NCBI GenBank assembly: GCA_027450005.1
Contig: DAIDKO010000121.1
Coordinates: 1-45,567, forward strand
Direction: 5' to 3'
DNA: 45,567 nt
From: Rhodanobacter sp.
GTDB taxonomy: Bacteria > Pseudomonadota > Gammaproteobacteria > Xanthomonadales > Rhodanobacteraceae
The translations under genes and the position numbers were made by a program. Position 1 is the stretch's first letter; every line of letters begins with the position of its first letter. The notes beneath the pieces were generated by a model. It ran no database searches. It saw nothing but the letters and a program-made list of their open reading frames with translations, and was not told the DNA's origin. This document shows, piece by piece, positions 26,330 through 45,078 of this stretch.

Positions 26330-27361
26330 ATGAAGGGAAAGGCCACATCGTTCGACATTGCCCATCTCGCCGGGGTCTCGCAGTCCACGGTCTCGCGCGC
26401 GTTGCGCGGCAGTCCGTTGGTGAGCGAGGAGACGCGATTGCGCATCCAGACGGCGGCAGATACGCTGAATTACAAGGTGGACAAGAACGCGTCCAATCTG
26501 CGCCGCCAGCACACTGGTACGTTGGCGTTGTTGCTGTTTGAGGATCCCACCGCGGACGACTCGCACATCAACCCGTTCTTCCTGTCGATGCTTGGCTCGA
26601 TCACCCGCGCCAGCGCGCAGCGGGGCTACGACCTGCTGATCTCGTTCCAGCAGTTCTCGCGTGACTGGCATGCGGATTTTTTCAGCAGCCAGAAGGCCGA
26701 TGGCCTGATCCTGCTCGGCTACGGCGACTACCAGTCGCACTGCGACAAGCTGGAGAAGCTGGTGGCGCAGGGTACGCGCTTCGTGCGCTGGGGCGCCGTG
26801 CTACCCGGCCAGCCCGGCGTTTCCATCGGCTGCGACAATTTCGAGGGCGGGCGGCTGGCCACCGCGCACCTGATTGAACAGGGCTGCCGACACATCGCGT
26901 TCCTCGGCGACGCCACACCGCATTATCCCGAATTCCACGAGCGCTACCGCGGCTACGCGGCGGCGTTGCGCGAGGCCGGCCTCAAGGTGGAGGAAGGCCT
27001 TCAGGCCGATGCCGAGACCACCGAACAGGCAGGTTACGAGGCTGCCGAACTGCTGCTGGAGCGCGGCCAGAAATTCGACGCGGTATTCGGCGCCAGCGAC
27101 CTGATCGCGATTGGCGCGCTGCGTGCCTTGATCGAGCGTGGCGTAGCCGTGCCGGGCGACGTGGCGGTCGCCGGGTTCGACGATATCCCGGTGGCCAGTT
27201 TCATCTATCCCTCGTTGACCACCGTGCGGCAGGATACCGGCCGGGCCGGCGAGGTGCTGGTGGAGCAGCTGGTGCGGATGATCGACGGTGAAAGCGTGGA
27301 AAGCGCCATGCTGCCGGCGCAGTTGAAGGTACGCCGTTCCAGCCTGCGGCCGGAATCCTGA
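26330..27361 (+). CDS. LacI-family transcriptional regulator
   Basis: 343 residues. The N-terminal HTH (about 6-27: TSFDIAHLAGVSQSTVSRAL) and hinge are followed by a periplasmic-binding-protein-like effector domain (from about 65), with the usual VFGASDLIAIGALRAL and AVAGFDDIPVASFI landmarks near the end. It should bind a sugar and control the alpha-glucan genes that begin 3 kb downstream; this is inferred from position and from the LacI-like operators at 43.2-43.4 kb. ATG 26330 starts directly before the HTH; the 27-codon extension upstream crosses the promoter. The Shine-Dalgarno is weak (GAG 8 bp away). Confidence 0.92.
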   Translation: MKGKATSFDIAHLAGVSQSTVSRALRGSPLVSEETRLRIQTAADTLNYKVDKNASNLRRQHTGTLALLLFEDPTADDSHINPFFLSMLGSITRASAQRGYDLLISFQQFSRDWHADFFSSQKADGLILLGYGDYQSHCDKLEKLVAQGTRFVRWGAVLPGQPGVSIGCDNFEGGRLATAHLIEQGCRHIAFLGDATPHYPEFHERYRGYAAALREAGLKVEEGLQADAETTEQAGYEAAELLLERGQKFDAVFGASDLIAIGALRALIERGVAVPGDVAVAGFDDIPVASFIYPSLTTVRQDTGRAGEVLVEQLVRMIDGESVESAMLPAQLKVRRSSLRPES

Positions 27362-30361: not shown

Positions 30362-31825
30362 TCACGCGGCGGGTTCGTGCACGCGCAGCGTGCACAGACC
30401 GGCGATCAGCAGGCTGATTCCGCCCAGCCCCAGGGCCCAGATCGGCTGGTCGTGGAAGAACCACTTCAGCAGTACGCCCAGCACGCTGGCGGCGAGCAGC
30501 TGCGGGATCACAATGAAGAAATTGAAGATGCCCATGTAGATGCCCATCTTCACCGCGGGCAGGTTGTCCGACAGCATCGCGTAGGGCAGCGACAGGATCG
30601 AGGCCCAGGCGAAGCCCACGCCGACCATCGAGGCGATCAGCCAGTGCGAGTCGCGGATGAAGAGGAAGGACAGCAGGCCCAGCCCGCCCAGCCACAGGTT
30701 GACCAGGTGGCTGATACGTAGGCCGCAGGCACGCACCAGCAGCGGGATCACGATGGCGGCAAGCACGCCCACGCCGTTGTAGGTGCCCATCAGCACACCG
30801 GCCCAGTTCGCGCCCGCGTTGTAGGCAGCCGAGGTGGTGTCGGTGCTGCCGTAGAAGTGGCCGGCGACGGCGGGCGTGGTGTTGATCCACATCGCGAACA
30901 TCGCGAACCACGAGAAGAACTGCACCCAGTTCAGCCGGCGCATCTGCGGCGGCATCGCGTGCAGGTCGCCCATGATCTGGCGCAGCATGCCGCTGGTGGC
31001 CGTGCCGCTCAGCCACACGAACAGCGCACCGGCGACAGCCAGTCCGCCGGCCAGCAGGTAGAGCTCCTGCGCGAGACGGAAATGCAGGATCAGTGCCAGT
31101 AGCGCCGCGCCGAGCAGCAGGAGCAGTGCGCCCACCTTCCAGGCGCTGCGTACGTCCGTATTCTCCGCCGCCGAAGGGTTATCGGCAAAGGCTTGAAGTT
31201 GTTCGGGCGGGTATTCGCGCGTGGTGGTGATCGTCCACAGCATCGCGCCCAGCAGTACCGCCGCGCCGGCATAGAACGCATACAGCACCGAATGCGGCAC
31301 GACGCCGGCTGGCGCGGTGTTGGCCACGCCGAAGCGGGTGAGCAGCCAGGGCAGGAACGAAGCCACCACCGCGCCCACGCCGATGAACACGCTCTGCATC
31401 GCGTAGCCCAGCGGGCGCTGCTTTGGCGGCAGCTGGTCGCCCACGAAGGCTCGGAATGGTTCCATCGACACGTTGAACGAGGCGTCCATGACCCACAGCA
31501 GGCCCGCCGCAACCCACAGCGTGGGCGAGTTCGGCATCGCCAGCAGGGCCAGCGTGGCCAGCACGGCGCCGGCGAAGAAGTAGGGCCGGCGGCGACCGAA
31601 ACGGTTCCAGGTGCGGTCGGAGCAGTAGCCGATCAGTGGCTGCACGATCAGCCCGGTGAACGGCGCGGCGATCCACAGGACCGGGATCTGGTCCACGTTC
31701 GCGCCCAGCGTTTGGAAGATGCGGCTTACGTTGGCGTTCTGCAGCGCAAAGCCGAACTGGATGCCGAGGAAGCCGAAGCACATGTTCCAGATCTGCCAGA
31801 ACGACAGCTCGGGCTTGCGCGTCAT
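30362..31825 (-). CDS. SLC45-like MFS sugar transporter
   Basis: 487 residues with twelve hydrophobic segments. The loop between helices 2 and 3 reads GYCSDRTWNRFGRRRPYF, the signature of the glycoside/SLC45-type MFS carriers; the first helix FGFLGIQFGFALQNANVSRIF is also typical. Members in Xanthomonas and Caulobacter import sucrose or maltose with protons. Here it is the last gene of the minus-strand glucan operon, its ATG overlapping the six-hairpin glycosidase stop by four bases (ATGA), so it most likely imports maltose or small maltodextrins made in the periplasm. A 51-codon upstream extension is a shadow of the glycosidase gene. Confidence 0.92.
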   Translation of the reverse strand: MTRKPELSFWQIWNMCFGFLGIQFGFALQNANVSRIFQTLGANVDQIPVLWIAAPFTGLIVQPLIGYCSDRTWNRFGRRRPYFFAGAVLATLALLAMPNSPTLWVAAGLLWVMDASFNVSMEPFRAFVGDQLPPKQRPLGYAMQSVFIGVGAVVASFLPWLLTRFGVANTAPAGVVPHSVLYAFYAGAAVLLGAMLWTITTTREYPPEQLQAFADNPSAAENTDVRSAWKVGALLLLLGAALLALILHFRLAQELYLLAGGLAVAGALFVWLSGTATSGMLRQIMGDLHAMPPQMRRLNWVQFFSWFAMFAMWINTTPAVAGHFYGSTDTTSAAYNAGANWAGVLMGTYNGVGVLAAIVIPLLVRACGLRISHLVNLWLGGLGLLSFLFIRDSHWLIASMVGVGFAWASILSLPYAMLSDNLPAVKMGIYMGIFNFFIVIPQLLAASVLGVLLKWFFHDQPIWALGLGGISLLIAGLCTLRVHEPAA

Positions 31826-34011
31826 GGAGCACTCCCCACGGAAGACAGCGGCACGATGCGCAGCGCGCCGACGTCGGCGCTGTTCAGTGGCCCGTCGCTG
31901 CCGCCAACACCGCCGGTGTAGTGCGCGTTGTGCGCGAGGTAGCTCATGTTGAAGCCATCGTCTAGCGCGAAGCTGCAATGCGCGCCGGCGCGGGCGATGA
32001 AACGCGCGGTAGTGGACAGCTCCTCGCCCACGCTGTGCGGCATCACCATCGGTACGCGCTGTTCGGGGCCGCCGTCGCAGCGGATCGCCAGCATCTTAAC
32101 CGCGGCAGTGATGCCGGTATTGATCGGGCCGTGGTCGTTGCTGTAGTTCAGCGCCACTTGGTAGCTGCCGTCGTAGGGTGCAACCCAGGTCCGCGGCCAC
32201 GCACCGCCGACGCTGGCGAACGGGCCTTCGCACTGTTGCGGGCTTTGCAGCGACTCCAGGCCGCCCGCGCCGGTTTGCGTGAGGCTGAAGCACTGCAATG
32301 CATCGATGGCCGGCACCGTAAGCTTGCCTTCGATGGCGCCCACGCGCCGCCCGTTGAGGTAGAGCACGCCGGGTGCCGTGCTGCGCACCAGCCAGTTCGC
32401 GCCATCGCGCTCGACCCGCGGCGCGGCGGGTGCCGACGGCGCGAAGGGGGGCACCGTGCTGCGCAGGCCCAGCGCGGGCACCTTGATCGCCATCAGGTGC
32501 ACGACGGTCTCGTCGCCGCGCTGAGAGGTGTCGCCGGCTACCAGCAGGTTGCCGTTGAGCTTCTTCGGCAGTTTCAGCGTGATGCGCTTGCCTGGAAGCT
32601 GCAGACTGATCGATCGCTCCTTGCCGAAGAGCATCGGCACCAGCGACACCGGCAGTTTGGGCTGGACGCTGCCGTCGTTCTCTAGGCCGAACACGCCTTC
32701 GCCGACTACGGCGAGGTAGGCCGCCACCGACCAAAGCTGGCGCGGCGAATCCACTACCGGGCCGCTGAACTTGCCGTCGTTCACGTGCGGGGCTTCGGTG
32801 GTCAGCTCGTAGTTCTCCATGTTGGAGCCGGCCAGCGCGGCGCCGCGCATCACCGAGGCGATCTCGAAGGCGATGTGTGCGGGATCGTTGAGCTTGCGTG
32901 CCGCGCGCAGCGCGTAGGCGCTCACGAACGGCCAGATCGCACGGTTGTGGTAGATCGGCTGGTCGGTGCGCTCGGGCCAGATCACCGGGCTGCCGGCCGG
33001 CCACACCGGGTAGTTCGCTAGCGCCTGGCGGGCGCGGTCGCCGTCGGCCACGCCGCTCTCGATGGCGAATGCGATGCCGAGCAGGTCGTAGGTGTCGTAC
33101 GGCGCGCCGTCGCCGCCGATGTAGCTCATGTACATGCCGCGGTCGTCGCGCCAGAAATGCGCATTGATCGCCGCCTTCAGCGCATCGGCCTGCGCCTGGT
33201 AGGTGGCCGCGCGGTCGTCGTGGCGTTCGGCCGCCAGGCGCGCGGCAAGCCGCAGCGCCTGGTAGTGCAGCACGTTGGTGGACAGCGAGAACGACTGCGC
33301 GATCGGCACCACGTCGTTCTGCGTCCACGCCGGATAGGTCTGCTCGCGCCAGTCGAGGAACGAGGTCTCGCCGCGGTACAGGCCCATGTGCGCGTCGAAC
33401 GCGTACTCGCGGTCCTGCGCCAGCGTGTTGGTGAGCGCCTGCCAAGTGTCGTTGGCGAACGTGGCGTCGCCCAGCAGGTGGCGCGCACCGAGGAACCACG
33501 CCACGCGGTCGGTGCTCACCGGCCAGCTGCCGCCCGAGCCAGTGTCCTGCATCACGAATGGGCCCTTCGGCGCGCCGGGGACGCGGGTGTCGGAGAGCTT
33601 GAAGAGTAGGCCATTGCGCGAGCGTACGGCGTCATAGCGCCACAGGCCGAGGTCGATCGAGAACGACAGGTCGCGCGTCCACACGTACGGCCACTTCTCG
33701 CCGGTGGCGAAGCAGTGGCAGGGAATGGGCTGGTTGTGGTCGTAAGCACCGTCGCGGATCGCGTCCACGGAGTCTTGCTGCAGGTCGTCCTGCGCCATCG
33801 CGTACAGGCCGTCGAACAGCGTGCTGGCGGTTTGCACCGCATACGGCTGTGCGGGGATCAGGCGCTTGCCGTTCGTCGCCTGCAGCAGGAAACCGCCGCC
33901 GGGCCGCATCTCGATGCTGGCCTGCTGGCCGCGCCATTGTAGGTTGTCGTGCCACAGCGGGCCGTGTGCGCCCGCGGTCAGCGCCAGCATCAGGCTGCCG
34001 AAGATGCTCAT
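31822..34011 (-). CDS. six-hairpin (alpha/alpha)6 glycoside hydrolase
   Basis: 729 residues. The N-terminal part is a beta region and residues 65-480 an (alpha/alpha)6 barrel with WTRDLSFSID (111-120), DWREQTYPAW and YDTYDLLG, motifs of the six-hairpin glycosidase clan that includes debranching enzymes and alpha-glucosidases. The C-terminal 200 residues look like a beta-rich accessory domain. It is annotated in relatives, from memory, only as 'six-hairpin glycosidase-like'; its exact bond is not known, and the context suggests alpha-glucan branch or oligosaccharide trimming. ATG 34011 has GAGGGG 6 bp upstream, but the resulting hydrophobic leader lacks any Lys or Arg before its core, unusual for a signal peptide; see the overlapping ORF at 34008-34091. 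Confidence 0.82.
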   Translation of the reverse strand: MSIFGSLMLALTAGAHGPLWHDNLQWRGQQASIEMRPGGGFLLQATNGKRLIPAQPYAVQTASTLFDGLYAMAQDDLQQDSVDAIRDGAYDHNQPIPCHCFATGEKWPYVWTRDLSFSIDLGLWRYDAVRSRNGLLFKLSDTRVPGAPKGPFVMQDTGSGGSWPVSTDRVAWFLGARHLLGDATFANDTWQALTNTLAQDREYAFDAHMGLYRGETSFLDWREQTYPAWTQNDVVPIAQSFSLSTNVLHYQALRLAARLAAERHDDRAATYQAQADALKAAINAHFWRDDRGMYMSYIGGDGAPYDTYDLLGIAFAIESGVADGDRARQALANYPVWPAGSPVIWPERTDQPIYHNRAIWPFVSAYALRAARKLNDPAHIAFEIASVMRGAALAGSNMENYELTTEAPHVNDGKFSGPVVDSPRQLWSVAAYLAVVGEGVFGLENDGSVQPKLPVSLVPMLFGKERSISLQLPGKRITLKLPKKLNGNLLVAGDTSQRGDETVVHLMAIKVPALGLRSTVPPFAPSAPAAPRVERDGANWLVRSTAPGVLYLNGRRVGAIEGKLTVPAIDALQCFSLTQTGAGGLESLQSPQQCEGPFASVGGAWPRTWVAPYDGSYQVALNYSNDHGPINTGITAAVKMLAIRCDGGPEQRVPMVMPHSVGEELSTTARFIARAGAHCSFALDDGFNMSYLAHNAHYTGGVGGSDGPLNSADVGALRIVPLSSVGSAP

Positions 34012-34091
34012 GCGAGGCCCCTCAACCGGGTGGCGGACGTCGTCGCGCGGCGGGCAGGGCGCACGATGGCATGCGAAAAGGTCTTGCTCAT
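34008..34091 (-). CDS. 27-codon ORF overlapping the six-hairpin glycosidase start
   Basis: ATG 34091 has GAGGGA 8 bp upstream, and the ORF ends with TGA sharing ATGA with the glycosidase start. The peptide is Arg-rich (six Arg plus one Lys) and begins MSKTFSHAIVRPARR. It may be a coupling leader peptide, or the basic end of the glycosidase signal sequence cut off by a one-base frame change or a sequencing error. I cannot tell which. Confidence 0.4.
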   Translation of the reverse strand: MSKTFSHAIVRPARRATTSATRLRGLA

Positions 34092-34405
34092 GGCGGTTTT
34101 CCCTCGATCCGATCGGCGGGCAGCGACCTCATGCGCTTGCCCGCCGCCTGCGTAGCAGCGGCCCCCCCTGGCCGGACCGCCGCTTGTCCATCCCTGCGGC
34201 CGGGTCCGGGGCCAGTGTACGCAGATGTATCCGTGCATGTGTTGGAAACCCTTCCGCCACGAGCCGGAAGGGGATGATTCATTGCGCCAGGATTGCGCCG
34301 TAGCGCGATGGCTGCCGCGGATGTTGCCTGCAGCGGAGATGCGGCCATGCTCCGCAGCGATACGCCGGACGAAGCCCGTGCTCAGGCACGCGACACCATC
34401 TCTCA
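34092..34405. other. 314-bp gap inside the glucan cluster
   Basis: Between the GH31 gene and the glycosidase unit. It holds a terminator-like hairpin (34244-34272) near the GH31 end; the rest has no convincing frame or clear promoter, though a new start of transcription would be expected here. Confidence 0.5.
34244..34272 (-). terminator. terminator-like hairpin downstream of the GH31 gene
   Basis: CCCTTCCG (34249-34256) pairs with CGGAAGGG (34265-34272) around an 8-base loop; on the minus strand TTTCC follows. It is moderately convincing and would split the glucan genes into two transcription units. Confidence 0.5.
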
Positions 34406-36787
34406 TCAATGCGCGGCGACGCCGTGCAGGGTCAGCGTGCGGGGCGCGCCCGCGTCGAGCTTGAGCACGGTCAGCGGGCCATAGCGGTCGCTGCCGGTGA
34501 TCCAGCCTTCGCCACCGGCGGCGGCCAGCTCGGCTGACGTCGCGTAGTGCTGCAGCGTAGCCTGGCCGACGGTTATGCTGGCGGCCGCGATGCCGTGCAC
34601 GCGCACCAGCCAATGGCGCAGGGCGGGGCGGTAGCTGCCCTGCGGCGCCGCGGCGCTGAAGCTCACGGTATCGCCGCTGCGCTGCGTGGCGAGCCGCTGC
34701 AGGTAATAGTCGCCGTGTTGGTAGGCGTAGGTCTCGCCGTCGTCGTCGTAGTAATCGAAGTGGCTGGCCGCGGCGGCGGGGAACACGTCCACGGCCACGG
34801 TGGCGACCGGGTGTTCGTCGACGTAGTCCATCACCGGCTGGGTAGGAATGATCGCGCCGGCGCGGATGAACAGCGGGATGTCGCGCCAGCTCTTGGCGTC
34901 CGTCGCCACTGTGATGGTCTTGCCGCCCGGGTAGACCTTGCCGGTGGCCCAGTCGGTCCAGCTGCCGGCGGGCAGGTAGATGCGCTTCGTGGTCTGGCCC
35001 TGCTTGACCACCGGCGACACCAGCATCCAGTCGCCGAACAGCCACGCGTCCACGTCGTTGCGCGCGTTCGCGTCGTGCGGCCAGGCGAACGCCAGCGGCT
35101 GCACCAAGCCCACGCCCTGCACGCTGGCGCGGTGCTGGTAGCTGTAGATGTAGGGCAGCAGTGCGTAACGCAGGCGGATCGCCTGCGTGGCCGCGGCTTC
35201 GGCCACCGCTCCGTAGCGCCACGGCTGGCGCTTTTCGTTGAACTCGCCGTGCACGCGGAAGATCGGCGTGAACGCACCGAACTCGATCCAGCGCGCGTAG
35301 TTCTCGTCGGAGGGATGGCCGTGGAAGCCGCCGCCGTCCATGCCCCACTGCATCTCGCCCACGTCGATGGCGCTGAGCATGCGCTGGCGCTGGCCCGCCA
35401 TGCTGGCGAAGCCGGTGGGGATGTCGCCCGACCACAGGCCGTAGGCGTAGCGTTGCGCGCCCAGCCAGAAGTCGCGGTTGATCGACCACACGCGCAGCTT
35501 GGAATGCGCGCGCTGGCCGTCGTAGGTGGCGCGCTGCATGTTGAGGAACTGGGTGTTGCTCTTGGTGGTATCGGCCTCGTCGTTCCAGAACCCGACGATG
35601 CCGGTGTCGAAGCTATGCTGCAGGTGCGGGTTGAACCACCACGCGCGAGCGGCAGGCTTGTCGAAGTCGATGTCCTTCACCGGTAGGTGCGAGAAGTAGT
35701 CGGGGCTGGCCTTCTCGCCGGGCAGCCACAGGTCGTGCGCGGTGGCGTAGCGGCCTTCCACCGTGTCCACGTGCACGCGAGGCTTCATGATGCCGGTCAT
35801 GTGCACGCCCAGCGCGTCCATGTCGGCCTTCAGCTTGCCGGTGGGGCCATCGGGGAATTTCTTGGCGTTCCAGCGGTACTCGCCCCAGTCCTTACCCCAG
35901 TCCTTCCAGTCGAAGTCGAAGGTGAAGGCATCGAGCGGGATGTGCTTGGCGCGGTAGGTGGCGACGATACCGCGGAATTCCTTTTCGTCGATGCCCCACT
36001 GGCTGTTGATGAAGCCGTTGGCCCACTTCGGGAACATCTGCGCGTGGCCGCTGAGGTCGGCCAGTTCGCCGAACAGCTCGGTAGGCGTGCCGGCGAGGAT
36101 GTAGTAGTCGGCATCGGGCCGCGCGAACTTGTCGACGGTGATGCGGCGCTGCGCGAGGTCGAAGTCTGCGCCGTCGCAGTCCACCAGCACGCCATAGCCG
36201 GAGGTGCTCCACACGAAGGGCGCGCCGGGATGGCCTTGCTCACCGGCCTTGGCCACCTGCGCACCGGTACGCAGCAGGCCGGCACGGGTGTCCTTGTCGA
36301 AGGCGTCGTACCCGCCGATGCCGTACAGCGGCTCGCCGGCGGCGTGGTCGAGCACAATGCGACCCTGTGCCAGCGCGGCGAGACCGGTCTGCCGCAGCAG
36401 CGGGTGGCCGTGCGCGTCGCTCACCTCGAGCGTGCCGCTGGCGCGGTGCCAGATCGCCACCAGGCGATCCGAGCGCAGCGTCACTGTGTCGCCTGTGCGC
36501 TGCACCTGCGGTTGGAACGGCGACGCGTCGGTGGGGTGCGGGTCCATCACAAGGCTGGTGGGCGTGGCGCCGCTCTCCGGCAGGTAATGCACGTGCAGCA
36601 CGCCGGGCGCCGGCATCTGCAACGTGAGCGTGCCGCTGTCCAGGGCGAACTGCACGCCGACGCGGCCGTCGTGCCTTGCCTGCGCAGCCGTGGCGCCCGG
36701 CGTGGCGAACGCGGCGGCGGAGACGGCGTTGAGGCCGCCGCCCAGCAGGGCGGCCAGTGCGAAGGCAAGCGGTTTCGATGTCGTCAT
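34406..36787 (-). CDS. GH31 alpha-glucosidase or 4-alpha-glucosyltransferase, exported
   Basis: 793 residues. A signal peptide (about 1-25) is followed by the GH31 N-terminal beta domain, the TIM barrel (about 250-560) and C-terminal beta domains including a DUF5110-like part with FDYYDDDGETYAY. The predicted nucleophile is Asp403 in GFWNDEAD, and the acid/base is Asp455 in LWSGDIPTGF. The nucleophile context differs from the common WxDMNE of classical alpha-glucosidases, so a transglycosylating GH31 (like Cellvibrio Agd31B, from memory) is a real alternative. GGAG lies 7 bp before ATG 36787 in an AT-rich patch. Expected in the periplasm or on the surface, acting on maltodextrins. It follows the GH13 amylase by 102 bp. 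Confidence 0.92.
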   Translation of the reverse strand: MTTSKPLAFALAALLGGGLNAVSAAAFATPGATAAQARHDGRVGVQFALDSGTLTLQMPAPGVLHVHYLPESGATPTSLVMDPHPTDASPFQPQVQRTGDTVTLRSDRLVAIWHRASGTLEVSDAHGHPLLRQTGLAALAQGRIVLDHAAGEPLYGIGGYDAFDKDTRAGLLRTGAQVAKAGEQGHPGAPFVWSTSGYGVLVDCDGADFDLAQRRITVDKFARPDADYYILAGTPTELFGELADLSGHAQMFPKWANGFINSQWGIDEKEFRGIVATYRAKHIPLDAFTFDFDWKDWGKDWGEYRWNAKKFPDGPTGKLKADMDALGVHMTGIMKPRVHVDTVEGRYATAHDLWLPGEKASPDYFSHLPVKDIDFDKPAARAWWFNPHLQHSFDTGIVGFWNDEADTTKSNTQFLNMQRATYDGQRAHSKLRVWSINRDFWLGAQRYAYGLWSGDIPTGFASMAGQRQRMLSAIDVGEMQWGMDGGGFHGHPSDENYARWIEFGAFTPIFRVHGEFNEKRQPWRYGAVAEAAATQAIRLRYALLPYIYSYQHRASVQGVGLVQPLAFAWPHDANARNDVDAWLFGDWMLVSPVVKQGQTTKRIYLPAGSWTDWATGKVYPGGKTITVATDAKSWRDIPLFIRAGAIIPTQPVMDYVDEHPVATVAVDVFPAAAASHFDYYDDDGETYAYQHGDYYLQRLATQRSGDTVSFSAAAPQGSYRPALRHWLVRVHGIAAASITVGQATLQHYATSAELAAAGGEGWITGSDRYGPLTVLKLDAGAPRTLTLHGVAAH

Positions 36788-36889: not shown

Positions 36890-38464
36890 CTAGTCAGACC
36901 CCAGGATCGCGCTGCCGTAAGCCGGTAACGACAGTCGATTGTCGAGGATGCGGGTGCCGGGCAGGCTGTGCTTCAGCAGATGGTTGAAGCGTTGCGAGGG
37001 CAAGCTCACCGTCTGCGGCCGGTCGAAGAGGTTGTGCAGCACCAGCACGTCGCCGTGCGCGTCGTCCAGCTCCCACGCGGCCACGTGCAGGTTAGCGTCG
37101 CGCCAGTTGCGCAAGGTGCCGTCGCGCAGTGCGGGGATGCCGCGCCGCCAGCCGATCAGCATCCGGTACCAGTTGAGCAGCGAATGCGGATCGGCCTGCT
37201 CGGCCTGCACCGATACGGCGCTGCCGTCACCCGCGCTCCAGCCTTCCCAGGTCGTCTCGCCCGGGCCCTTGCCGGTGCGGTACCAGCGCATCGGCTCGCG
37301 CAGGTGCGGGTCGGGCTTCTCGCCGCGCATGCCGAGTTCCTCACCGTAGTAGATGAAGGGATGACCGGGCAGGGTCAGCAGCATCGCGGCGGCGGTGCGC
37401 ATGTGCTCCGGATTGCCGCCGAGCTGGCTCATCACGCGTTCTTGGTCGTGGTTCGACAGAAACGGCGCGTCGTCAAAGCGGCCGTGCGCAGTGGCGCGGT
37501 AGGCGTCGTATTGGCGCTGCAGCGTGGCGCCGATGTCGCGGTCACGCTCCTGTTCGGCACTGTCGATGAGGCGGGTGGCCAGCGGGAAGTTGAACACTGC
37601 GTCCAGCGAGGCCATCCACGGCACCAGGTTGTCGGGGTTGTGCCGTGCCACCTCGCCGACCAGCCATGCGTGCGGGTTCGATGCGTCGATGCCCTGGTGG
37701 AATTCGTGCCACCAGGCCAGATTCTTCTTGAGCACGAGCGGACTGTCGCCGTCGGTCTCGCTGTTGTCGTAGATGTGCTGCGCCGCGTCGAGACGGAAGC
37801 CGTCCACACCCTTGTCCAGCCAGAACCGGCCCACCTTGACCATCTCAGCGCGCACGGCAGGGTTGTCGTAGTTCAGGTCAGGCATCTGAGCGGTGAACAC
37901 GCCAAGGTAATGCTGCCTTGAAGCCGCCTGACCGCCGCCTGCCGCATGCCAGAGCGGGCCGCCGGTGGCGCTGATCTGCTTGAGATCGGTGGCCGGCGTG
38001 GCCCAGCTGTACCAGTCGTGGTAGGGACTGCGCGGGTCCTGCGCAGCCTTGAACCAGGGCGACTGGTCGCTGGTGTGGTTGATCACCAGGTCGAGCACCA
38101 CCTTGATGCCGCGCTGGTGCGCTTCATGCACGAGCCGCTGGAAGTCGGCCATGTTGCCGTACTGCGGGTTGATCGCCTCGTAGTTGGTGATGTCGTAGCC
38201 GTGGTAGCTCGGCGAGGGGTTGATCGGCATCAGCCAGATGCCGTCCACGCCCAGCGACTTCAGGTAATCGAGCTTGGCGGTGACGCCGTTGAGATCGCCC
38301 ACGCCGTCGCCGTTGGTGTCGTACCAGCTGCGCACGAAGATTTCGTAATAGGTGTCGGAAGGCGCCCGGGACGTGGCGGCGGTAGGCGGTGCAGCTGCGG
38401 CCGGCGCGACAGGTGACAGCAGTGCGGCGAAGAGCAGGAGTGCGAGGCGGAGCGGGGTTTTCAC
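36890..38464 (-). CDS. exported GH13 alpha-amylase
   Basis: 524 residues starting at GTG 38464, with AGGAG five bases upstream. A signal peptide (about 1-25, ending PAAAA) precedes the GH13 barrel: region I DLVINHTS (about 125-132), region II GFRLDAAQH with nucleophile Asp226, region III LVGEVA with acid/base Glu271, and region IV FLSNHDQ with Asp340. The C-terminal beta domain is short. Sequence style (YYEIFVRSWYDTNGDGVGDL) is that of periplasmic alpha-amylases and maltogenic enzymes. It should cleave alpha-1,4 bonds in dextrins brought in by the TonB receptor. The halogenase-like gene ends 20 bp upstream, indicating co-transcription. The longer frame to 38515 is rejected. Confidence 0.94.
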   Translation of the reverse strand: MKTPLRLALLLFAALLSPVAPAAAAPPTAATSRAPSDTYYEIFVRSWYDTNGDGVGDLNGVTAKLDYLKSLGVDGIWLMPINPSPSYHGYDITNYEAINPQYGNMADFQRLVHEAHQRGIKVVLDLVINHTSDQSPWFKAAQDPRSPYHDWYSWATPATDLKQISATGGPLWHAAGGGQAASRQHYLGVFTAQMPDLNYDNPAVRAEMVKVGRFWLDKGVDGFRLDAAQHIYDNSETDGDSPLVLKKNLAWWHEFHQGIDASNPHAWLVGEVARHNPDNLVPWMASLDAVFNFPLATRLIDSAEQERDRDIGATLQRQYDAYRATAHGRFDDAPFLSNHDQERVMSQLGGNPEHMRTAAAMLLTLPGHPFIYYGEELGMRGEKPDPHLREPMRWYRTGKGPGETTWEGWSAGDGSAVSVQAEQADPHSLLNWYRMLIGWRRGIPALRDGTLRNWRDANLHVAAWELDDAHGDVLVLHNLFDRPQTVSLPSQRFNHLLKHSLPGTRILDNRLSLPAYGSAILGSD

Positions 38465-38484: not shown

Positions 38485-40011
38485 TCAGGCTTCGACGGGT
38501 GACGGCACGCCGCAATGGCGCGCCACGAACTCATGGTGCGGCGGCAGCAGGTTCACGGCGCGACCGACCAGGGTGCGGACATCGGCAAGGAAGCGGTCGA
38601 GTTGCTGGTCGTCCAGTTCGTCGGCCAAGGGGTGGTAGCGCGCCGGCTCGATGTGCTGCCCCAGCAATACCTGCAGCCAGCCGGTTTCGGTGAACAGTTC
38701 GTCGCCCTCGCGGAAGATCATCCCGGTGTGCCGGAACAGCTCGATGCGACGCGCCAGTTCCGGCGGTATCTCCATGGTGCCGCATTGCCGCCAGAACGGA
38801 GTGTCGGTGCGCTCGGTGGCTTTGTAGTGCAGGATCAGGAAGTCACGCACGCGCTCGTATTCGAAGCGGGTTTGGCGGTTGAATTCCTCCGCCAACCTCG
38901 GGTCGCAGTGGCGGTCGGGGAACATCGCCAGCAGGCGGTTCACGCCCGACTGCACCAAGTGGATGCTGGTCGATTCCAGCGGCTCCATGAAGCCGGCAGC
39001 GAGGCCCAGCGCGAGGCAGTTGCGGTTCCATGCCAGCTTGCGCATGCCGGTGACGAAGCGCAGCGGGCGAGGATCGCCCAACGGCTCGGTCTCCAGGTTC
39101 GCCAGCAGCTGCGCGGCGGCTTCGTCGTCGCTGATGAAGCGGCTGCAGTACACGTGGCCGTTGCCGGTGCGGTGCTGCAGCGGGATGCGCCATTGCCAGC
39201 CCGCGGTTCGCGCGCTGGCCTGGGTGTAGGGGCGCATCGGGCCGCCCGGCGCGCTACCCACCGCCAGTGCGCGGTCGCAGGGCAGCCAGTGTTGCCAGTT
39301 CTCGTAGCCGGTCTTCAGCGCGCCCTCGATCAGCAGGCCGTGGAAGCCGGAACAGTCGATGAAGAAGTCCCCCTCGACCGTTGCGCCATTGTCCAACAGC
39401 AAGGACGTGATGCGACCGTCGTCGGCGTGCAGGTGCACGTCGACCACCTTGCCCTCGATACGCTGCACGATGCCGGGCTTGATGTGTTTGCGCAGGTACT
39501 GGCCATACAGCGAGGCGTCGAAATGGTAGGCGTAGCGGATGCCGCCCAATGGGCTGTTCGGCACCGCGTCCATTCGCGCGAAACGGTTCTGGGCGGCGGC
39601 GGCCGAATTCACCGAATGGGCCCACAGGCTCTGCGCGCCGTGCCGGCCGCGGCTGCGCAGCCAGTGCTGGTGGAACGGCGTCAGCCCCACGGGTACGCCG
39701 AAGTCGCCGAAGGCGTGCAGGTAGGAGTCGCCCAGCCGGCCGAAGCCGTTGAGCTGTACGCCGAGTTTGAAGGTGCCATGCACGGCACGCAGCATGTCGT
39801 CCTCGTCGATGCCGAGGAAGCGGTTGACGTGCAGGATCTGCGGGATGGTCGCCTCGCCCACGCCCACGGTACCGATCTCGGCCGATTCCACCAGCCGGAT
39901 CTGCAATTGGGAGCCGAGCGCGCGGGCCAGCAGGGCAGCGGTCAGCCAGCCGGCGGTGCCGCCGCCGACGATGACTAGCTGACGGATGCGTGTGTCGCCG
40001 ATGTCGCCCAT
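38485..40011 (-). CDS. tryptophan-halogenase-family flavoprotein
   Basis: 508 residues. FAD site GGGTAGW (16-22), the GVGEATIP motif (50-57), catalytic-type Lys82 in FKLGV, the halogenase signature WQWRIP (272-277) and Glu346 in EPLEST are all present, so the residues needed for flavin-dependent halogenation are kept. Relatives next to TonB receptors in Xanthomonas and Brevundimonas have, from memory, shown halogenation of indole-type compounds in vitro, but no tryptophan-derived product is suggested here: all neighbours act on glucans. No signal peptide. ATG 40011 has AGGAG 7 bp upstream; a 10-residue extension is possible. Role in the locus unknown. Confidence 0.9.
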   Translation of the reverse strand: MGDIGDTRIRQLVIVGGGTAGWLTAALLARALGSQLQIRLVESAEIGTVGVGEATIPQILHVNRFLGIDEDDMLRAVHGTFKLGVQLNGFGRLGDSYLHAFGDFGVPVGLTPFHQHWLRSRGRHGAQSLWAHSVNSAAAAQNRFARMDAVPNSPLGGIRYAYHFDASLYGQYLRKHIKPGIVQRIEGKVVDVHLHADDGRITSLLLDNGATVEGDFFIDCSGFHGLLIEGALKTGYENWQHWLPCDRALAVGSAPGGPMRPYTQASARTAGWQWRIPLQHRTGNGHVYCSRFISDDEAAAQLLANLETEPLGDPRPLRFVTGMRKLAWNRNCLALGLAAGFMEPLESTSIHLVQSGVNRLLAMFPDRHCDPRLAEEFNRQTRFEYERVRDFLILHYKATERTDTPFWRQCGTMEIPPELARRIELFRHTGMIFREGDELFTETGWLQVLLGQHIEPARYHPLADELDDQQLDRFLADVRTLVGRAVNLLPPHHEFVARHCGVPSPVEA

Positions 40012-40050
40012 GCGCTGGCTCCTGTGTTGCCCGCCACGCACGGCGGGATT

Positions 40051-40090
40051 GGAGAGAAAAATGCCCCGCCGGAATCCGCACGGCGGGGCA
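40051..40090 (-). terminator. strong rho-independent terminator between TonB receptor and halogenase genes
   Basis: TGCCCCGCCG (40062-40071) and CGGCGGGGCA (40081-40090) form a perfect 10-bp stem; on the minus strand TTTTTCTCT follows. It lies 27 bp past the receptor stop. A second small hairpin, CCCGCC/GGCGGG (40030-40047), is next to it. Partial read-through would give high receptor and lower enzyme expression. Confidence 0.85.
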
Positions 40091-40116: not shown

Positions 40117-43032
40117 TCACTGGAACTTGTAAGAAACACCCAGCGAGTAAGTGCGACCGTAGCGTTCCCAAGTCTGCACCTGGCGTGGATCGTTGTTCTG
40201 GAACGTGGTGAAGATCTTGTTCGAGAGGTTCGAGCCAGTCGCGATCAGAGTCAGTCCCTTCCACGACCCTTGCTCGAACGTGTAGCTCACCTGCGCGTCG
40301 TAGGTGCTGCCGCCCTGCAGCGTCTGCTCGACACGCGTCGCGCTGATGCCCGACACCTCGCCCAAGAAGCTGGAACGATAGTTGTCGCTCACGCGCGCCT
40401 CGAACCCGTTGTGCTGATAGTAGAACGTGCCGCTGGCGACCCACTTCGACAGGCCCGGCACGGTAATCGGTGTCGGGTTACCGCCGTACACCAGGGAGCT
40501 CTTGGTGCGGGTGCCGGAGAGGACCGTGCCGAAGCCGTCGAGTACCGGGGTGATCAGGTTGAACGGCAGGTTCAAGGTCACCTGGGCGCCCTTGACGTAA
40601 CCGTGGCCGTCGTTGTTCGGGCCGGAGACATAGCCCTGGGTGGTTCCGAGCTGGCTCAGCTGCGTCGGGCTCAGGTTGAACGGCAGGAACGAGGCGAAGT
40701 CATACGGGAAGGCCGCATTCGGGTCGATGTAGTCGCGAAGGCTGATGAAGTAGCCAGACACCGAGAAGTAGCCGCCGCCGCCGCTGCAAAGTTGCGAGTT
40801 CTTCTGGTCTGCGGCGTTGCACTTGTAGTTGCTGCCACCCGCGAAGTAGTGCTCGTAGCTGACGTTGTAGTTGTTGGCCATGGTCGGCTTCAGCTTGGCG
40901 TTGCCGCCGGACGCGCTGAAGTAGGCCTGGTTCGGATCGGTGGACTGCAGGTGCGTGACGTTACCGTTCACCGAGAGGCTGGGATTCATCTGGTCCATGC
41001 GCGGACGGGCCAGGGTGCGGGCCGCGCTCACGCGGATGTCGTCGTTGTCGGTGAGGCCGAAGATAAGGTTAGCACTCGGCAAGTAACGGGTGTAACTGGT
41101 GCTGCCACTGATCGGTAGCAGCGAGAACGTGCCCGTGACGGCACTGCCCGGAGCCACGCGTTCGCCGGTGGCACGCTGCGCGGTGTGCTGCATCTGCACA
41201 CCGAAGTTGCCGCGCAGGCTGACGGGGCCAAGATTGGTGTCGATGTTGAACTGGAAGAACGGAGTGAAGACGTTCTCATGCGTCTTCCAGTTCGGCGGCG
41301 TACCGGTATTGGAGCCGAAGGTCGGCACGTTGACCAAGCTGCCATTGGCGATCAGGTCGAACGGGTTGTAGCAGAGCTGCGGGCCGATGCCCATCCAAGA
41401 CAGCGGGTCGCAAACGCCGGCACCTTGGATCGGGGCAGTCGTGACGGCGCTGCCGCCGCTGAGTGTGCCACCGCCCAAGGTCAGGAAGGCTTGGTCGATA
41501 TGGTAGGTCTTGTCGCGGCGGCTGTTGCTAACGCCGAACACCAAGCTCGAAAATGGCCCGCTAGCAAAGCTGCGCTCCACCGAGAGACGCACGTTGGCCA
41601 GATAGTCGACGGTGCGCGGTGCATTGATGAAGCCAGCCTGCACCAAGTTGGCGCCAGCGCCCCAGCCCTGCGGGTCAGTCAATACCACGCCTTGGGTGTA
41701 GTTCAGCGAGGGGCTGAGTTGGAGCATGTGGTTGCTGAGTTCGTTGAAGGCGACCGTGTCGAGTGCGCCGCCGCTCGAGCCATAGCCGGTGCCGGAATAG
41801 CTCTCCAGATTGACGTCATGGCGGGTAGCGCGCGAGTAGTTCGCGTCGGCGTCCACGGACCAATTTTCGTTGATGGTGAACTTGTTGTCCCAGTTGAAGT
41901 TGTAGACGCGAGCGCTACTGCTGTTGTAATCGTTGCGTATCACCGGCTTGACGTTGGCGTAGGTGCCGCTCTGCACGAAGCCGCCACCGCTGACATGGGG
42001 ATCGGCAACCACCGTGACGCCGGGCTGCAGCTGAGCAGCGCTCCAGTACAGCGGGAACTCCATACCCTTCGCCTGCTGCACGTCCTTGAAGTTGTCATAC
42101 GTCATGTCGACCGTGCCGGTATAGAACTCGCTAGGCTGCCACTGCACGGTGGCCAGCAGGCCATTGCGCCTGAGGCTGTCCGTGATGCCGTAGTTCTTGG
42201 AGCCGCCGATCACTGCGTTGCCGTTTGAGGTGGGGTAGCCCCATGGTGCCTGGTGCTGGATCTGTGAGGGGTTGTCCTCCAGGTCCACACCCAAGGTCAC
42301 ACCGACGGTGTGGTCAGCGAATTGGTCCACCCAGACGCCGTTGACGTTGTGACCCGTATCGCTCACGCCGGGGCCGGTCGCCAGCTGGGACATGTCGTTC
42401 CAGATGTACTTGGCGTTTACCGCGGCCTCTGGGCCGGACTTGTCCAGCGGGCGGATCGTGTGCATGTCCACGGTACCAGCCAAGCCTTGGCCGATCAGGT
42501 CAGCCTCGGGGCTCATGTGCACAACCACGTTGTCGAACCAGCTCGATGGATACTGGTCGAATGCCACGTCTCGGTTGTTGTTCGTGCTGACCTGTTGGCC
42601 GCCATTGACCAGCGCGGTGGAGAAATCCGGGCCGAGGCCGTGTATGGAGAGCACCTGTGGACGGCCGTCCACGGTCTGGACTGCGAGCCCGGGCAGGCGG
42701 CCCAGCGCATCGGCAATGGAGACGCCGGGCAACTTGCCGACCTGTTCGGCGGAAACCGCTTCAACGATCGTGCTGGCGTTGCGCTTCAGTGCGGTCGAGT
42801 TCTCGATACTGCTGATGAAGCCATTCACCTGCACGGCTTGCATCTGCTTGGCTTCCGTTCGCTTCCCCTTCTTACCGGAGGCGTCGGCCTTGGTCGTCGC
42901 TGTATCGGATTTCGCCGCTGCCTGTGTGTCCTGCGGTTGCGTGGTGGGCACGGTCGCCGCGCTGGCCGCGGCGCTGGCGCCAAGGCACGCGGATGCGATC
43001 GCCATGGCCAGCAGCTTGTGCTTCATCAACAT
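40117..43032 (-). CDS. TonB-dependent receptor, predicted maltodextrin uptake
   Basis: 971 residues. A signal peptide (about 1-27), a Lys/Ala/Thr-rich spacer and a TonB-box-like MQAVQVNGF (about 65-72) precede the plug (about 75-200, with VSIADALGRLPGLAVQ), and a 22-strand barrel ends in Phe-Gln (VSYKFQ). The size and long N-terminal spacer match the sugar-scavenging receptors of Xanthomonas and Caulobacter (MalA type). It would carry oligosaccharides too large for porins across the outer membrane, powered by TonB-ExbBD. GGGGAG lies 7 bp before ATG 43032. Substrate is inferred from the amylase and glucosidase genes. Confidence 0.93.
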   Translation of the reverse strand: MLMKHKLLAMAIASACLGASAAASAATVPTTQPQDTQAAAKSDTATTKADASGKKGKRTEAKQMQAVQVNGFISSIENSTALKRNASTIVEAVSAEQVGKLPGVSIADALGRLPGLAVQTVDGRPQVLSIHGLGPDFSTALVNGGQQVSTNNNRDVAFDQYPSSWFDNVVVHMSPEADLIGQGLAGTVDMHTIRPLDKSGPEAAVNAKYIWNDMSQLATGPGVSDTGHNVNGVWVDQFADHTVGVTLGVDLEDNPSQIQHQAPWGYPTSNGNAVIGGSKNYGITDSLRRNGLLATVQWQPSEFYTGTVDMTYDNFKDVQQAKGMEFPLYWSAAQLQPGVTVVADPHVSGGGFVQSGTYANVKPVIRNDYNSSSARVYNFNWDNKFTINENWSVDADANYSRATRHDVNLESYSGTGYGSSGGALDTVAFNELSNHMLQLSPSLNYTQGVVLTDPQGWGAGANLVQAGFINAPRTVDYLANVRLSVERSFASGPFSSLVFGVSNSRRDKTYHIDQAFLTLGGGTLSGGSAVTTAPIQGAGVCDPLSWMGIGPQLCYNPFDLIANGSLVNVPTFGSNTGTPPNWKTHENVFTPFFQFNIDTNLGPVSLRGNFGVQMQHTAQRATGERVAPGSAVTGTFSLLPISGSTSYTRYLPSANLIFGLTDNDDIRVSAARTLARPRMDQMNPSLSVNGNVTHLQSTDPNQAYFSASGGNAKLKPTMANNYNVSYEHYFAGGSNYKCNAADQKNSQLCSGGGGYFSVSGYFISLRDYIDPNAAFPYDFASFLPFNLSPTQLSQLGTTQGYVSGPNNDGHGYVKGAQVTLNLPFNLITPVLDGFGTVLSGTRTKSSLVYGGNPTPITVPGLSKWVASGTFYYQHNGFEARVSDNYRSSFLGEVSGISATRVEQTLQGGSTYDAQVSYTFEQGSWKGLTLIATGSNLSNKIFTTFQNNDPRQVQTWERYGRTYSLGVSYKFQ

Positions 43033-43375: not shown

Positions 43376-43461
43376 CACAGTGGGGGGTGTGCATGGGCTG
43401 CCACTAAGCTGCTCGCCATTCGATGGACCGGGCGGCTCGCCCGCGCATGGGGCACAGCTCA

Positions 43462-45078
43462 ATGACCAACACTCCCTGGTGGCGCGGCGCCGTCATCTAC
43501 CAGATCTATCCGCGCAGCTTCCTCGACACCGATGGCGATGGCGTGGGCGATCTGCCCGGTATCATCCAGCGGCTGGACTACGTGGCCGGCTTGGGTGTGG
43601 ATGCGATCTGGGTCGCACCGTTCTTCAAGTCACCGATGGCGGATTTCGGCTACGACATCGCCGACTCTTGCGACGTTGACCCGCTATTCGGCAAGCTCGC
43701 CGATTTCGACCGGCTGCTGCGCGAAGCGCATGCGCGCGGGCTGAAGGTGATGATCGACCAGGTGCTCAGCCATACCTCCGACGAGCACGCCTGGTTCAAG
43801 GAAAGCAAGCAGAGCCGCGACAACGCTAGGGCCGACTGGTACGTGTGGGCCGACGCGAACGAGGACGGCACGCCGCCCAACAACTGGCTCTCGATCTTCG
43901 GCGGCGGCGCGTGGCAGTGGGAGCCGCGGCGCGGCCAGTACTACCTGCACAACTTCCTAGCCAGCCAGCCCGACCTGAACTTCCACAACCCGGACGTACG
44001 CGCCGCGGTACTGGACAACCTGCGCTTCTGGCTGGATCGCGGCGTGGACGGCTTCCGCCTCGACTCGATAAACTTCTGCTTCCACGACGCTCAGCTGCGC
44101 GACAACCCGGCAAAGCCTAAGGCGATGCGCACCGGTCGCGGCTTCAGCGCCGACAATCCCTACGCGTTCCAGTACCACATCTACAACAACACGCAACCCG
44201 AGAACCTCGCGTTCCTGCAGGACCTGCGTGCTTTGATGGATCGCTACCCCGGCATCGTCACGCTGGGCGAAATCTCCTCCGAGGATTCGCTGGCGACGAT
44301 GGCTGAGTACACCAGCGGCCACCGCCTGCACATGGGCTACAGCTTCGAGCTGCTCACCAAAGACTTCAGCGCTGCGCACATCCGCGACACCGTGCGTACG
44401 CTGGAGGCGAAGTTGACCGAAGGCTGGCCATGCTGGGCGATCTCCAACCACGACGTGGAGCGCGTGGTCAGCCGCTGGGGCGGAGGAGACGCCTCCGCCG
44501 CGATGGCGAACCAGCTCACCGCGATGGTCTGCTCGCTGCGTGGCTCCGTGTGCGTGTACCAGGGAGAGGAGCTCGGCCTGACCGAGGCCCAGCTACCCTA
44601 TGAGTCGCTGCGCGATCCCTACGGCATCGCGTTCTGGCCGGAGTTCAAGGGTCGCGACGGTTGCCGCACGCCTATGCCGTGGAGCGACGCCGAACACGCC
44701 GGTTTCAGCAGCGCCGTGCCGTGGCTGCCGGTGCCGCCCGAGCATCGCGCGCTGAACGCGGCGAAGCAGCAGGCGGATCCCGCTTCCGCGCTAAACGGCT
44801 ACCGCCGCTTCATGCACTGGCGCCGGGGACTGCCCGCGCTGCGCCACGGCAGCATCCGCTTTCTCGACACGCCGGAACCGGTGCTGGCGTTCGTTCGCGA
44901 GCTTGGCGAGGAGCGCGTGCTGGCGGCGTTCAATCTCTGCGCCGAGGCGGCGGAATGCGATCTGCCGCCGATTGGCGAACTGCAGGCGCTGCAATGCCAT
45001 GGCCTCGCCTCCGGTACGCTGGATGGCGGTCGCTTGTGCATGCCTGCCCACGGCAGCCTGTTTGCGCGCGTGGTCTGA
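43462..45078 (+). CDS. GH13_23 alpha-glucosidase / glucosyl-transfer enzyme (XgtA-like)
   Basis: 538 residues, no signal peptide, so cytoplasmic. Length and sequence closely follow the Xanthomonas XgtA/AglA-type enzymes as I remember them. Catalytic residues are Asp201 (GFRLDSINF), Glu270 (TLGEISSED) and Asp331 (AISNHD), which are at the same numbers as I recall for XgtA. Such enzymes hydrolyse maltose and short alpha-glucosides and can transfer glucose to other acceptors. It would split maltose entering through the MFS carrier. I chose ATG 43462 (MTNTPWWRG) on family N-termini; ATG 43447 is an alternative, and neither has a strong Shine-Dalgarno. Stop is 8 bp from the convergent glycosyltransferase gene. 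Confidence 0.93.
   Translation: MTNTPWWRGAVIYQIYPRSFLDTDGDGVGDLPGIIQRLDYVAGLGVDAIWVAPFFKSPMADFGYDIADSCDVDPLFGKLADFDRLLREAHARGLKVMIDQVLSHTSDEHAWFKESKQSRDNARADWYVWADANEDGTPPNNWLSIFGGGAWQWEPRRGQYYLHNFLASQPDLNFHNPDVRAAVLDNLRFWLDRGVDGFRLDSINFCFHDAQLRDNPAKPKAMRTGRGFSADNPYAFQYHIYNNTQPENLAFLQDLRALMDRYPGIVTLGEISSEDSLATMAEYTSGHRLHMGYSFELLTKDFSAAHIRDTVRTLEAKLTEGWPCWAISNHDVERVVSRWGGGDASAAMANQLTAMVCSLRGSVCVYQGEELGLTEAQLPYESLRDPYGIAFWPEFKGRDGCRTPMPWSDAEHAGFSSAVPWLPVPPEHRALNAAKQQADPASALNGYRRFMHWRRGLPALRHGSIRFLDTPEPVLAFVRELGEERVLAAFNLCAEAAECDLPPIGELQALQCHGLASGTLDGGRLCMPAHGSLFARVV

Follow-up and report, generated by a model that had tools for sequence, protein, structure and literature searches.

A flavin-dependent halogenase homolog as an accessory gene of TonB receptor-linked alpha-glucan loci in Rhodanobacter and relatives

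Why does a gene for a flavin-dependent halogenase homolog lie between a TonB-dependent receptor and an amylase? The question is raised by a 45,567-nucleotide stretch of Rhodanobacter sp. DNA, referred to here as the window. The original prediction was a catalytically intact tryptophan halogenase homolog inside a glucan utilization operon. This reading is partly supported, because an intact gene is indeed present in an alpha-glucan locus with a TonB-dependent receptor (TBDT). However, we had to correct the operon, the constant partner of the halogenase, and the name of the enzyme, and the gene is an accessory one. The features of the locus are as follows.

26330 to 27361, plus strand: probable LacI-family regulator, two genes past the carrier (custom profile, not Pfam)
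30362 to 31825, minus strand: MFS sugar carrier, GPH sucrose symporter-like (match below the cutoff)
31822 to 34011, minus strand: six-hairpin glycosidase (weak Pfam matches only, to Bac_rhamnosid6H and GDE_C)
34406 to 36787, minus strand: GH31-family enzyme of the alpha-glucosidase/alpha-xylosidase type
36890 to 38464, minus strand: GH13 alpha-amylase-family enzyme with a SusG-type C-terminal domain and a hydrophobic, signal-like N terminus
38485 to 40011, minus strand: flavin-dependent halogenase homolog (HAL), 508 aa from an ATG, no signal peptide seen
40057 to 40088, minus strand: conserved intrinsic terminator in the spacer that runs from the TBDT stop codon to the start of HAL, with an 8-bp G+C-rich stem and a 9-nt loop, followed by CATTTTT
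40117 to 43032, minus strand: TBDT, 971 aa (TIGR01782, 452.6 bits)
43423 to 45078, plus strand: divergently transcribed GH13 enzyme, in a position shared by most orthologous loci

Pfam and TIGR profile matches bear out the neighbors that had been proposed for HAL, namely the TonB receptor, amylase, GH31 enzyme, glycosidase, and sugar carrier. The locus thus has the makeup of a CUT locus, with a TBDT, CAZymes, and an inner-membrane carrier, and with a regulator recognized by the custom profile only. The eight proteins scanned between 27466 and 45078 are sugar-related, receptor, halogenase, or signaling proteins, and no NRPS, PKS, or RiPP precursor was found among them. The gap of about 395 nt between the GH31 and six-hairpin genes (34012 to 34405) is where an additional GH13 gene, encoding about 675 aa, sits in most orthologous loci. 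A CGTase remnant in this gap was rejected, because matches were at chance level only. A sigma-70 promoter scan returned 0 hits, against 1.4 expected by chance, and this outcome is uninformative.

The HAL gene is intact. Its product matches Pfam Trp_halogenase (PF04820) with 613 bits over profile positions 2 to 457 of 458, and an alternative GTG start at 40041 would give a protein of 518 aa. The sequence features of PF04820 are all present: the GxGxxG FAD motif, the WxWxIP motif, and the catalytic Lys and Glu. Lys82, Glu346, and the WxWxIP residues (W272-Q273-W274-R275-I276-P277) are found at the predicted numbering. An alignment of 16 sequences shows no variation at K82, W272, W274, P277, or E346, and next to none at I276. 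We then counted residues in 193 distinct proteins, which came from loci L035 to L194 plus the window, with the phylum sample described below left out. In the relatives with at least 40% identity, K82, W272, W274, E346, S347, and T348 are kept in 160 of 160, I276 in 158, and P277 in 157. Catalytic residues are therefore not lost in close orthologs. Among the 33 relatives below 40% identity, the catalytic Lys is found in 23 and the catalytic Glu in 23.

HAL is under purifying selection, with dN/dS values of 0.12 to 0.22 in five pairs. In four of these pairs its dN/dS was the lowest of five genes or within 0.002 of the lowest; in the fifth, two glycosidases were below HAL. Judged by eye, the GH13 and GH31 enzymes have signal-like segments at their N termini; no signal peptide was seen in HAL. 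A crude test over 244 halogenases found a median of 12 residues ahead of the FAD motif and a signal-like hydrophobic stretch in 0 of 244. By this test, HAL seems to be cytoplasmic.

Among solved chains, 9luq scores highest against HAL (546 bits), followed by Xcc4156 (6y1w; 502 bits) and BrvH (6frl; 472 bits); the rest score at most 273 bits. BrvH and Xcc4156 are thus the closest solved relatives end to end, with 9luq alone scoring higher. Free-tryptophan halogenases bind the backbone of tryptophan with a C-terminal segment. The local matches end at HAL residue 418 for PrnA, 441 for RebH, and 480 for PyrH, and these ends describe whole matches, not single residues. The 6y1w structure is that of Xcc4156 (PMC7336383). 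Xcc4156 and BrvH have open pockets and accept indoles but not free tryptophan, and Xcc4156 brominates its model substrates exclusively (PMC7336383). A peptide substrate has been proposed for both enzymes, whose native substrates are described as unknown (PMC7336383). A second halogenase gene lies upstream of brvH (PMC5945002). Tryptophan halogenase is thus a family name here; among characterized enzymes, the nearest have open pockets and use indoles, not free tryptophan. An open pocket with short substrate loops is predicted for HAL from this similarity.

Some halogenase genes of this family occur in tandem arrays of three or four, mostly beside TBDTs. In 17 of 17 arrays (L081, L085, L149, L156, L157, L171, L174, L175, L183, L186, L189, L192, L202, L205, L208, L210, and L247), the second copy has lost one or more of its catalytic residues (Lys, Trp, or Glu), which copies 1, 3, and 4 keep. 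An 18th array, L158, was left out of this count because it ends at a contig edge. A branch with an SH-aLRT support of 100 sets the second copies apart, in a tree that carries a warning of long branches. This pattern suggests that the arrays may encode an ancient heteromeric complex, one subunit of which is dead.

Could HAL be a flavin protein that does not halogenate, acting instead as a simple monooxygenase or as a sensor of flavin or redox state? The retention of degenerate copies in the arrays implies that some family members work without halogenation. The distribution of a partner reductase points the same way, as 15 of the 35 genomes with a halogenase match have no PF01613 flavin reductase and 20 have one. 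The window genome is among the 15, in an assembly that is 87.7% complete. PF01613 is present in 8 and absent from 18 of the 26 genomes without a halogenase match. However, the catalytic Lys and Glu and both Trp residues are kept in all 160 examined relatives at 40% identity or more, and the other copies in the arrays keep them as well. We regard a nonhalogenating role in this setting as unlikely.

To survey the neighborhood of HAL, we used three sets of sequences. The relatives set contained 61 genomes including that of the window, 35 of them with a match at E ≤ 1e-30, and 80 regions were taken; the matches excluded were seven distant copies (33 to 39% identity) and a fragment at 51%. The named set was the best 80 of at least 595 matching stretches, 592 of those being relatives. 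The phylum sample contained 299 genomes, of which 33 matched at E ≤ 1e-100, and at most five candidates were scored per genome, so that rich genomes are undercounted; the matches taken from it were those in genomes new to the survey. A halogenase block was defined by at least 380 bits against the window protein, and two duplicate blocks were removed. Genes were labeled by profiles made from seed proteins, most of them verified against Pfam, and the counts cover the labeled families only.

We found a TBDT directly adjacent to the halogenase in 183 of 222 distinct blocks from the three sets, the named set being the best 80 of at least 595. Random placement in the same loci gave 41.6; since the loci were picked around these genes, this figure is higher than true chance. 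Chance adjacency was therefore rejected. The TBDT was within two genes in 192 blocks and immediately upstream on the same strand in 153. Taken alone, the phylum sample had an adjacent TBDT in 64 of 73 blocks (15.0 expected), the relatives in 49 of 66 (8.5 expected), and the named loci, the best 80 of at least 595 stretches, in 72 of 85 (18.5 expected). A CAZyme of a labeled type was at most four genes away in 158 of the 222 blocks. There was no adjacent TBDT in 39 blocks, and neither a TBDT nor a labeled sugar gene within four genes in 13. For distant halogenases (below 380 bits), a TBDT was adjacent in 6 of 25.

The linkage spans several classes and involves no fewer than two families of receptor. 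Its predicted recurrence in Xanthomonadales and Caulobacterales was seen, and it occurs in Sphingomonadales, Alteromonadales, and Burkholderiales too. Whatever the glycan type, it is the receptor that stays constant beside the halogenase, rather than any one CAZyme or the glucan enzymes. Similarity among halogenases and similarity among their TBDTs were only modestly correlated overall (188 pairs; Spearman coefficient of 0.25, with a maximum of 0.10 in permutations). Coevolution beyond shared inheritance was set aside as an explanation, because this overall correlation is inseparable from inheritance. The window genome has four PF04820 copies and 14 PF00593 matches, and only 2 of the 14 (on C121 and C75) are beside a halogenase; the enzyme therefore serves few receptors. 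The C75 locus (L059) contains genes for LacI, a TBDT, a halogenase, a PF10091 enzyme, an SBP, and two ABC permeases, and its receptor is of another family, OMP_b-brl_4. A Caulobacter vibrioides genome (L148) has a LacI-TBDT-HAL-GH3-GH30 locus.

We next asked how the neighborhoods are distributed on a FastTree phylogeny of 265 proteins with a midpoint root. Locus type changed 61 times on the tree, versus at least 124 times in 100 shuffles, and the presence or absence of an alpha-glucan context changed 22 times, versus at least 74. Neighborhoods are therefore not random on the phylogeny, and we rejected that reading. TBDT adjacency per se is scarcely clustered (26 changes versus at least 29). 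The window HAL belongs to a clade of 40 proteins with a support of 95, and 39 of the 40 are in alpha-glucan loci. The clade spans gamma- and alphaproteobacteria, including Rhodanobacter, other Xanthomonadales, Sphingopyxis, Maricaulis, Henriciella, and relatives. The gammaproteobacterial loci mostly have GH31 plus six-hairpin enzymes, and the alphaproteobacterial ones often have GH97. By manual count, 35 of the 40 have a TBDT directly upstream, and 38 of the 40 have one no more than two genes away.

The division of clades by glycan type would also follow if every glycan came with companion compounds of its own. In such a scenario, the enzyme would tailor or detoxify small molecules: a free aromatic met together with plant glycans, such as a plant phenolic or indole, would be halogenated or hydroxylated, and the link to the glycan locus would be co-regulation only. 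The use of free indole and indole derivatives by the studied relatives (PMC7336383) agrees with this scenario. However, the constant partner is the receptor and not any particular catabolic enzyme. Moreover, starch-type glucans are not known to carry aromatic substituents. We consider a small-molecule role possible but doubtful.

HAL is separated from its receptor gene by more than a spacer. The terminator was seen in 21 of 22 mal-type loci, where dinucleotide shuffles predict 1.34. Across all loci, it was present in 77 of the 137 gaps that lead from a TBDT to a halogenase gene, with 4.1 expected. In the mal-type loci, its stem is preserved through paired changes, with G-U type variants in a few of them. 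The automatic scan, whose loop limit is 8, did not list the element. The fold of the whole TBDT-HAL spacer barely beats shuffles (z of -1.9). The conserved element suggests that HAL and the glycosidases are probably expressed by read-through at a level below that of the receptor, or separately. Therefore, although the gene neighbors are as proposed, one continuous operon is not established, as the terminator splits the TBDT from HAL.

The gene is naturally absent from some orthologous loci. Orthologous mal receptors with 59 to 91% identity were found in 20 of 60 other genomes, and one more had 50% identity. A halogenase is beside the receptor in 17 of the 22 mal-receptor loci, the window included. 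In four genomes (G003, G004, G005, and G029), the GH13 match starts 165 to 168 nt past the receptor match and is followed by GH31, and a halogenase would not fit into this spacing. A genome-wide match to the halogenase at E ≤ 1e-30 is lacking in G003, G005, and G029, and G004 has two such matches elsewhere. In G036, the receptor and the halogenase are in separate places. The halogenase is therefore an accessory of the locus, because 4 of 22 orthologous loci are without it. As these four keep the TBDT, GH13, and GH31, uptake does not need HAL everywhere. The absences are compatible with gain and loss alike.

Such clean absences would also fit a hitchhiker, placed by chance or inherited in a block without any functional link to the locus. 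However, the adjacency far above random placement, its spread over several classes and at least two receptor families, and purifying selection all speak against this, and we hold it to be highly improbable.

The receptor as constant partner raises a further possibility, that the enzyme modifies residues of the cognate receptor or of a linked peptide before export. Sister loci contain TBDT-(HAL)-SapC-Cupin_8-HAL-DUF6445 modules, in which FIH-like Cupin_8 and 2OG oxygenase-like DUF6445 proteins may act in the same manner. One Cupin_8 neighbor matches FIH and JMJD5. In DUF6445 (L164:4831-5520 and relatives), H110-x-D112 and H202 are invariant in 9 sequences. Its structure model has a pLDDT of 91.9, and nearly all of the 50 PDB matches listed are Fe(II)/2OG oxygenases, with modest TM-scores near 0.5. 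SapC had no match to PDB sequences at E ≤ 1, and its structure model was set aside (mean pLDDT of 39, from a two-row alignment). With this composition, peptide or receptor modification is thinkable, and the peptide substrate suggested for BrvH and Xcc4156 (PMC7336383) would fit. However, SapC, Cupin_8, and DUF6445 are absent from the window locus, and the four orthologous loci retain the TBDT without a halogenase. With only 3 unlinked homologous TBDTs to set against 156 linked ones, the contrast was too small to single out a shared target residue. We also know of no TBDT that is modified in this way. For the window, such a modification appears improbable to us. A broader version is more speculative still: a hitherto unrecognized proteobacterial toolbox of cytoplasmic, oxygen-dependent enzymes (open-pocket halogenases, in some cases with degenerate partners, plus Cupin_8, DUF6445, and SapC) might modify certain TonB receptors for nutrients, or a peptide linked to them, and the window would be its simplest, one-enzyme alpha-glucan version.

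We suggest, with a probability of about 0.5, that HAL is an intact, cytoplasmic, open-pocket halogenase of the BrvH/Xcc4156 type. In this reading, it is an optional, selectively kept accessory of TonB-driven alpha-glucan (maltodextrin or starch) uptake, and its target would be an aromatic group of the receptor pathway. The sequence data show the intact gene and its catalytic residues, purifying selection, the receptor linkage, the clade-specific glycan context, and optionality; halogenation in vivo, the cytoplasmic location, and the target are predictions. In this mechanism, free FADH2 from a general cell reductase and O2 would react on the enzyme, and a halide (bromide in the studied relatives) would be oxidized to hypohalous acid. 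The acid would move to Lys82 and, assisted by Glu346, would be delivered to an electron-rich aromatic ring in the exposed pocket. Because the glucan has no aromatic ring and is itself presumably cut in the periplasm, we consider the likeliest target to be a side chain on a peptide or protein linked to the receptor, or else an aromatic molecule that the cell handles while expressing the receptor.

BrvH/Xcc-type halogenases have so far been studied on model substrates. The clade-by-glycan pattern, the constant receptor, and the loci lacking the gene narrow their native role to the question of which aromatic group changes upon expression of a given TonB receptor. If protein modification is true, the control of nutrient receptors would gain a new level. 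In a full-text literature search, we recognized no paper describing the TBDT-halogenase linkage; most subscription journals are outside the scope of such a search, and this is weak evidence of absence. Halogenase and TonB receptor terms are both present, in other contexts, in the available text of PMC11337851, PMC3377617, and PMC7333567, and the available text of PMC8269204, PMC7142613, and PMC3400609 has nothing on the linkage. A colony morphology screen lists one transposon hit in a "tryptophan halogenase" of Sphingomonas (PMC11340318).

Among known systems, the window locus resembles the Xanthomonas campestris XCC2469 maltodextrin CUT locus and the MalA system of Caulobacter, which have a TBDT, alpha-glucan enzymes, a sugar transporter, and a regulator (PMC1790865). 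Unlike the XCC2469 account, whose main text does not contain the word "halogenase," the window has one between the receptor and the amylase. HAL shares with PrnA, RebH, PyrH, and Thal the fold family, the FAD motif, the Lys and Glu residues, and WxWxIP. However, it matches them with only about 235 to 273 bits, and no natural product cluster is seen among the eight proteins scanned. HAL is like BrvH and Xcc4156 in its end-to-end similarity and in having the same kind of catalytic residues. Set against the published descriptions of these enzymes, HAL is distinguished by its alpha-glucan TBDT locus and by its place in a clade of such loci.
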